NCBI RefSeq assembly: GCF_007750395.1
Contig: NZ_CP036281.1
Location: 4,115,001-4,179,000, forward strand
From: Polystyrenella longa
GTDB lineage: Bacteria; Planctomycetota; Planctomycetia; Planctomycetales; Planctomycetaceae
Direction of reading: 5' to 3'
Length of the DNA: 64,000 bases
The first letter of the stretch is position 1, and every line of letters begins with the position of its first letter. A program made the translations under genes and the position numbers. This document shows positions 5,797 through 53,134 of the stretch, in pieces. The notes under the pieces were generated by a model. The model worked only from the letters and a program-made list of their open reading frames with translations. It did not search any database and was not told where the DNA came from.

Positions 5797-5898
5797 TAGA
5801 TCCTGTCCAGGATAAGTGCGGCGGCTATCGATCCCGAAAAGCCCTTAAATACAGCAGGCTACGCCGCCAGAACACGCTATGGATATCTGTAATGCGCT
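5797..5898 (+). repeat. 102-bp repeated intergenic element, copy A
   Basis: Begins TAGATCCTGTCCAGGATAA and ends GCGCT. A second copy at 52944-53045 has exactly the same length with no gaps; by hand count 85 of 102 positions agree. Shared parts are the near-perfect palindrome ATCCTG-tc-CAGGAT at the left end, GGCGGC paired with GCCGCC about 35 bases apart, the block CCGAAAAGCCCTT between them, and CGCTA followed by a 6-bp palindrome (GATATC here). No reading frame is conserved. It could be a MITE, an insertion-sequence remnant or a structured RNA. Confidence 0.8.
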
Positions 5899-5944
5899 CT
5901 ACTAAATAAGCAAAGGAAGAAACATCTTGCTTTAAGCAAAACAA

Positions 5945-52613: not shown

Positions 52614-53134
52614 GCTTGGTTCCGAGCCTCAAGTGCTTTGTTGAAAAGCTTTGTTGAATGGATTGCTAAGTTAGCATCGTCAGTGAGTGATAGCGACAAA
52701 ATACTCTCGACACTTTCGATCCAACGCACCGGTAGCACGATAAATATTTTCAACAGGGCAATGAAACGGTAGGCAAGCACTCGCTTCTTGTCTCCGCATT
52801 CGCACTGCTGGATAAGCCAGACAGTGGCACCCGAAGAGCGTCAGAGCACTCTCGAATTGAACGAGCGGGCTCATCTTATCTCTGGATTCGCATGGTTAAC
52901 CAAGCAAACCGTGGCATACGAAACGTGCCAGAATTAAACGGACTAGATCCTGTCCAGGATAATTATGGCGGCTCTCGGTTCCGAAAAGCCCTTGAAAACA
53001 GGTGGTTACGCCGCCAGAAAACGCTACGGTTAACTGGGATGCGCTATAGCATATGTTTAAGCTCACTAGGCAGCGCAACTCCACGCAATGATCAACGACC
53101 GAGACCCACAAGCTGCTCCATCGAACAGGACGGC
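52614..53134. other. Intergenic region between convergent PQQ and guaA genes
   Basis: 521 bases, long for two convergent genes that need no promoter here. It holds a 13-base palindrome TGCTAA-G-TTAGCA (52664-52676) and copy B of the 102-bp repeat (52944-53045). A 64-codon minus-strand frame at 52680-52874 and a plus-strand frame crossing the repeat are not supported as genes. The region may be a remnant of a mobile element. Confidence 0.5.
52944..53045 (+). repeat. 102-bp repeated intergenic element, copy B
   Basis: Same length and orientation as 5797-5898, about 83% identical by hand count with no gaps. It keeps ATCCTG-tc-CAGGAT, the GGCGGC/GCCGCC pair, CCGAAAAGCCCTT and CGCTA; the inner palindrome is GTTAAC here instead of GATATC. 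It lies 90-190 bases after the end of guaA on the opposite strand. Confidence 0.8.

Follow-up and report, generated by a model that had tools for sequence, protein, structure and literature searches.

A dispersed planctomycete repeat of about 101 bp as a probable MITE of the IS630 kind

Our sequence comparisons indicate that a short repeat found twice in the window, the 64-kb stretch of DNA analyzed here (bases 4115001-4179000 of the complete 6,125,480-base [6.1-Mb] chromosome of genome G000), is very probably a gene-less MITE of about 101 bp and of the IS630/Tc1-mariner kind that was moved in trans by an IS630-type transposase. The sharp ends of the repeat, the flanking TA duplication, and the imperfect terminal inverted repeats identify it as a MITE, and the match of its right end to IS630 elements suggests that it works like the pneumococcal RUP. 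The first-pass annotation had offered a MITE, an IS end remnant, or a dispersed structured RNA as identities for the repeat, and these features bear out the first of them.

The two copies in the window and their family

The two copies had been described as equal in length and orientation and as matching without gaps at 85 of 102 bases, and we obtained the same count over positions 5797-5898 and 52944-53045. The true ends lie slightly outside these spans. From TA to TA, the copies occupy 5797-5901 and 52944-53048 (105 bp each) and are identical at 87/105 positions, with copy 1 matching the family consensus at 99/105 positions and copy 2 at 93/105. As the annotation had stated, both copies are intergenic and keep no protein frame; we observed no conserved frame and no coding capacity at 101 to 105 bp. 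Copy 2 is bordered by a gene for a PQQ-repeat protein on one side and by the 3' end of guaA on the other. The features of the two copies are as follows.

5797..5901, plus strand: putative MITE copy 1 with flanking TAs (element proper 5799-5899, 101 bp)
5797..5798, unstranded: left TA target-site duplication of copy 1 (context tTAG)
5799..5826, plus strand: left terminal repeat of copy 1, containing the palindrome ATCCTG-TC-CAGGAT and the GGCGGC block
5874..5899, minus strand: right terminal repeat of copy 1 (consensus GAGCGCATTCCAGATAACCGTAGC, read inward), the end matching planctomycete IS630 right ends (a family match)
5900..5901, unstranded: right TA target-site duplication of copy 1 (context TAc)
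52944..53048, plus strand: putative MITE copy 2 with flanking TAs (element proper 52946-53046)
52944..52945, unstranded: left TA target-site duplication of copy 2 (context cTAG)
53047..53048, unstranded: right TA target-site duplication of copy 2 (context TAg)

In the chromosome, at least 52 complete or nearly complete copies share their ends but are surrounded by unrelated sequence, and two of them lie in the window. A left-end pattern allowing up to three mismatches detected 52 sites, compared to none for a reversed-pattern control, which is well above chance; this number is a lower bound, as the pattern search requires the left end. A chromosome search with copy 1 scored at least 40 matches (E values of 1.8e-60 to 9e-27), nearly all of which spanned the same 105 bases. 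Further copies in this genome and in relatives, which the first-pass annotation had proposed as a check, were thus present in the chromosome and in two congeneric genomes, and among 59 genomes searched as relatives, the element occurred in these three only. In a wider scan with a degenerate pattern, we found the element only in contigs of the metagenome assemblies NAT128 and HKST-UBA56, which we judged to be the same two relatives (G002 and G001, respectively). Copies diverge from the consensus by 3 to 12% in most cases and by up to 28%.

Two additional observations concern individual copies. The copies at L084 and L130/L131 (G000:5771206 and 5557820) share the same left flank and a neighboring 310-amino-acid ORF, suggesting that a segmental duplication, and not transposition, gave rise to one of them. 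A further MITE family, about 100 bp in length and likewise duplicating TA, is TAGAGGCCATTTCAAAACCCGGTTGTGG...GGGTTTTGAAACTACTTGTA (L120 interior 1562-1650, L122, the L028 flank, and L256-L259), which is nested with exact TA duplication in two copies of the first family, abuts a third, and is also present in G001 and G002.

Ends, target site, and position at stop codons

When the copies were aligned, matching stopped abruptly at both ends. One end of the element reads TAGATCYTGTCCARGATAA and the other ..GCGCTCTA. With its surroundings, the left end of the family reads Y-TA-GATCCTGTCCAGGATAAGTGTGGCGGC and the right end reads ...GCTACGGTTATCTGGAATGCGCTC-TA-G. The terminal inverted repeats are imperfect (TAGATCCTGTCCAGGATAA.. 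versus TAGAGCGCATTCCAGATAA..), and the two ends pair in the predicted fold. The target-site duplications that the first-pass annotation had suggested looking for were found as TA at both ends: the right end was readable with its TA in 41 copies, and the left TA was also intact in most of these. Outer bases of YTA|TAG were present in 33 of the 41 copies, with T and C equally frequent as the left Y and with G as the right base in 37. One copy (L120) splits a REP palindrome that neighbors a RAYT gene and provides an empty site within the same genome, since the intact palindromes adjacent to it read gagCTAGCCGTGG (empty, gag-CTAG-CCGTGG; filled, ...C-TA-[element]-TA-GCCGTGG). We rejected a 4-bp duplication of CTAG, given that in this genome the right C is invariant and the left Y is not. 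A 3-bp duplication of TAG may have occurred in place of TA, but the right flank is not G in 4 of the 41 copies.

The target was read in one direction. We counted 17 TTA|TAG sites versus 1 CTA|TAA site in this genome, and 26 versus 2 over the three genomes G000, G001, and G002 (p=3e-6). In contrast, full IS630 copies showed target orientations of 4 versus 4, with no one-way use. Our preferred explanation leaves this one-way YTAR target, with its free left Y and fixed right G, unaccounted for, and a symmetric transposase would not predict such a bias, which counts against that explanation. One-way target use therefore presents a testable puzzle for the IS630 mechanism.

Copies were also enriched at stop codons. 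Using mechanically defined ORFs of at least 130 residues, we observed that 18 of the 52 copies end a neighboring ORF exactly at their own TAG, 8 with the left end and 10 with the right end, compared to 11 of 277 noncoding YTAG sites near copies that fell on a stop codon in a background of crude ORFs (Fisher p=2e-9). Because the target reads YTAG, the frame had in nearly all 18 cases already stopped at that codon before insertion, and both ends of the element read TAG inward, recreating the stop. Consistent with this, the orthologous gatB and tsaD genes (products assigned as NCBIfam equivalogs) of both relatives end at the same codon and lack the element at that codon, and gatB of G001 has an independent copy 8 bases beyond its end codon. 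A transposon with a YTAG target and TAG ends could thus enter essential genes, gatB and tsaD among them, at their final codon and leave the protein unchanged. Neighboring genes were convergent at 21 copies and divergent at 4, whereas these two classes of gene pairs must be equal in number on a circular chromosome. The simplest cause of the stop-codon bias would be that only harmless insertions persist, and the copies may possibly also have a role at 3' ends.

Relation to IS630 elements

The right terminal repeat of the MITE was identical at 23/26 and 22/26 positions to the right ends of IS630 elements from another genus (L178 and L177, respectively), whereas the best of 300 shuffles reached 18/26. 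The matching IS630 ends either overlap the stop codon of the transposase gene or follow it immediately. Within the same genus, a contig of G001 opens with the tail of an IS630 transposase (L141 ORF; DDE_3, E=2e-19; IS630, E=8e-23), and its stop codon is directly overlapped by CGCTACGCTTAAGTGTTACGCGCTCTAG, which is identical to the MITE right end at 20/26 positions. Relatives of this transposase were detected in 93 of 398 planctomycete genomes; those in G080 and G083 finish with TAGAGCGCATCACAGTTAACCGTAGC or a close variant of it (23 and 22 of 26 positions shared with the MITE right end). The full-length IS630 relatives measure about 1.03 kb between TAs and are located at Y-TA/TA-R.

The left end of the MITE matched IS630 ends at no more than 17/26 positions, a value that the right-end shuffles also gave by chance. 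The suggestion of an IS end in the first-pass annotation therefore holds for the right end, and the left end has no recognizable match, indicating that it has either diverged or come from another IS630. We did not detect a full-length IS630 carrying both MITE ends among the IS630 elements compared, in which the G001 gene is cut by the contig edge with its left end outside the contig; this, too, counts against the preferred explanation. We also did not detect an intact IS630 in the complete genome of the element itself, in which a PF13358 search gave weak matches, mostly to IS3-like ORFs, and the sole IS630 trace was a 68-amino-acid scrap. The lack of an intact relative suggests that the family is probably orphaned and, together with the divergence of the copies, that it is probably no longer moving in the complete genome. 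These findings suggest an old and immobile family.

We observed a sister MITE family in another genus (G161, G167, G169, and G171; L150, L151, and L260-L271), with the ends TAGAGCGCATCCCACCTAACTGTGGCG...GTGCGACCCGCACTA and finishing in GCACTA. There were 20 matches to this family in G171, and at least 40 were scored in each of G167 and G169, and the existence of this family supports the view that this IS630 clade has repeatedly yielded such elements.

These observations are consistent with a model in which an IS630-family transposase supplied in trans would bind both ends and excise the element, which would then insert at the TA within a YTAG target and duplicate the TA. In ISY100, the IS630 transposase alone cuts the ends, inserts at TA, and duplicates TA (PMC2170065). 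Surviving copies are intergenic, most often at the 3' ends of genes, with about a third exactly on a stop codon, where insertion would be harmless since each end begins with TAG inward and recreates the stop.

Alternative readings and known systems

The position of the copies could also reflect retention of the MITE as a two-way 3'-end element, either a terminator or an mRNA-end hairpin, which would add a role to the IS630 explanation and leave the origin the same. The 18 of 52 copies that start exactly at a stop codon, the 21:4 ratio of convergent to divergent neighbors, and the strong hairpin potential predicted on both strands are in line with such a role, but selection removing insertions from promoters and genes yields the same bias, no T run follows the hairpin, copies decay to 3 to 28% from the consensus, and the orthologues in sister species end without the element at that codon; we consider retention for this role rather improbable. 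An extended form of this proposal, a one-way MITE that prefers stop codons, restores them with its TAG ends, carries a two-way 3' hairpin, spread at low cost, and maybe persisted beyond transposase loss as a terminator or 3'-end module, likewise appears unlikely. The predicted fold also bears on the suggestion of the first-pass annotation that the repeat is a dispersed structured RNA, regulatory or catalytic, with a fold under selection. The consensus is predicted to fold as a long hairpin (-36.6 kcal/mol), length and orientation are fixed, and a base pair in the left palindrome differs at both positions between lineages (C-G to T-A). However, a long hairpin is expected from terminal inverted repeats anyway, the fold predictions of the three genomes conflict, and the pooled fold retains only the six pairs of the GGCGGC/GCCGCC helix with one compensatory cell. 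We detected no covariation beyond the one inherited two-sided change in the short left palindrome, and no Rfam family matched at the gathering threshold in the 64-kb window. Since the copies are also inserted precisely, with duplication of TA, and have no constant gene partner, the suggestion did not hold up, and we give a structured RNA hardly any credence.

A derivative of single-strand IS200/IS605 or REP-RAYT elements would have been inserted by a tyrosine transposase 3' of YTAG, with end hairpins and no target duplication. Such an origin would fit the directional target with its almost constant right G and the perfect hairpin at the left end of the element, and the genome has two RAYT genes and one IS200-type gene. 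The empty site is expected under this and the IS630 model alike, since both give YTAG. The right end, however, matches IS630 rather than IS200, and the two ends form inverted repeats. The sister elements, as well as full IS630 copies whose ends are related, are bounded by TA in the same way. Furthermore, other palindromes (GTGCCAC...GTGGCAC) flank the RAYT genes, where the element occurs only as one copy inserted in such a palindrome. These findings make an IS200/IS605 or REP-RAYT origin very unlikely, and we rejected the RAYT and IS200-type genes as partners because their flanks differ from the element. The RAYT genes themselves (L138 and L139; G000:5948645 and 1213333) have the palindromes GTGCCACGGTTTGC.. 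/ GTGCCACTGCTGGC..GCAGTGGCACCC and represent planctomycete REP systems with different REPs for each gene.

The IS630 explanation places the repeat in a well-known kind of element, of which the family appears to be a new and undescribed member; our literature search for planctomycete IS630 MITEs found no paper describing it. Like the Correia/NEMIS and ERIC elements (PMC2229807), the repeat is short and TA flanked, has inverted repeats, and behaves as a MITE, but its sequence and hosts are different and we saw no fusion to ORFs. It resembles the GTAG/CGTC REPs with RAYTs (PMC3733652) as a small palindromic intergenic repeat, and REPs of other sequence occur in the same genome. In contrast to REPs, which are 20 to 40 bp long and lack terminal inverted repeats with TA duplication, it has both of these features. 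With the planctomycete IS630 elements (L177, L178, and relatives), the MITE shares 22 to 23 of 26 right-repeat positions, the TA duplication, and the Y-TA-R target, but those elements encode a transposase and show symmetric target use (4:4), in contrast to the one-way use by the MITE (17:1). The closest parallel in behavior is RUP (Repeat Unit of Pneumococcus), a 107-bp MITE mobilized in trans by IS630-Spn1 (PMC2229807, PMC3049150), to which we claim no sequence relation. The present family differs from RUP in that the complete genome lacks the partner IS, the two ends are unlike one another, and one-third of the copies fall exactly on stop codons. Both are of nearly equal length, without a gene, with TA termini and IS630-like terminal repeats, and dispersed as intergenic copies (about 100 for RUP and at least 52 here) with proposed movement in trans. 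With this family, planctomycetes have a RUP-like MITE that probably derives from an IS630 and has a sister family in a different genus.
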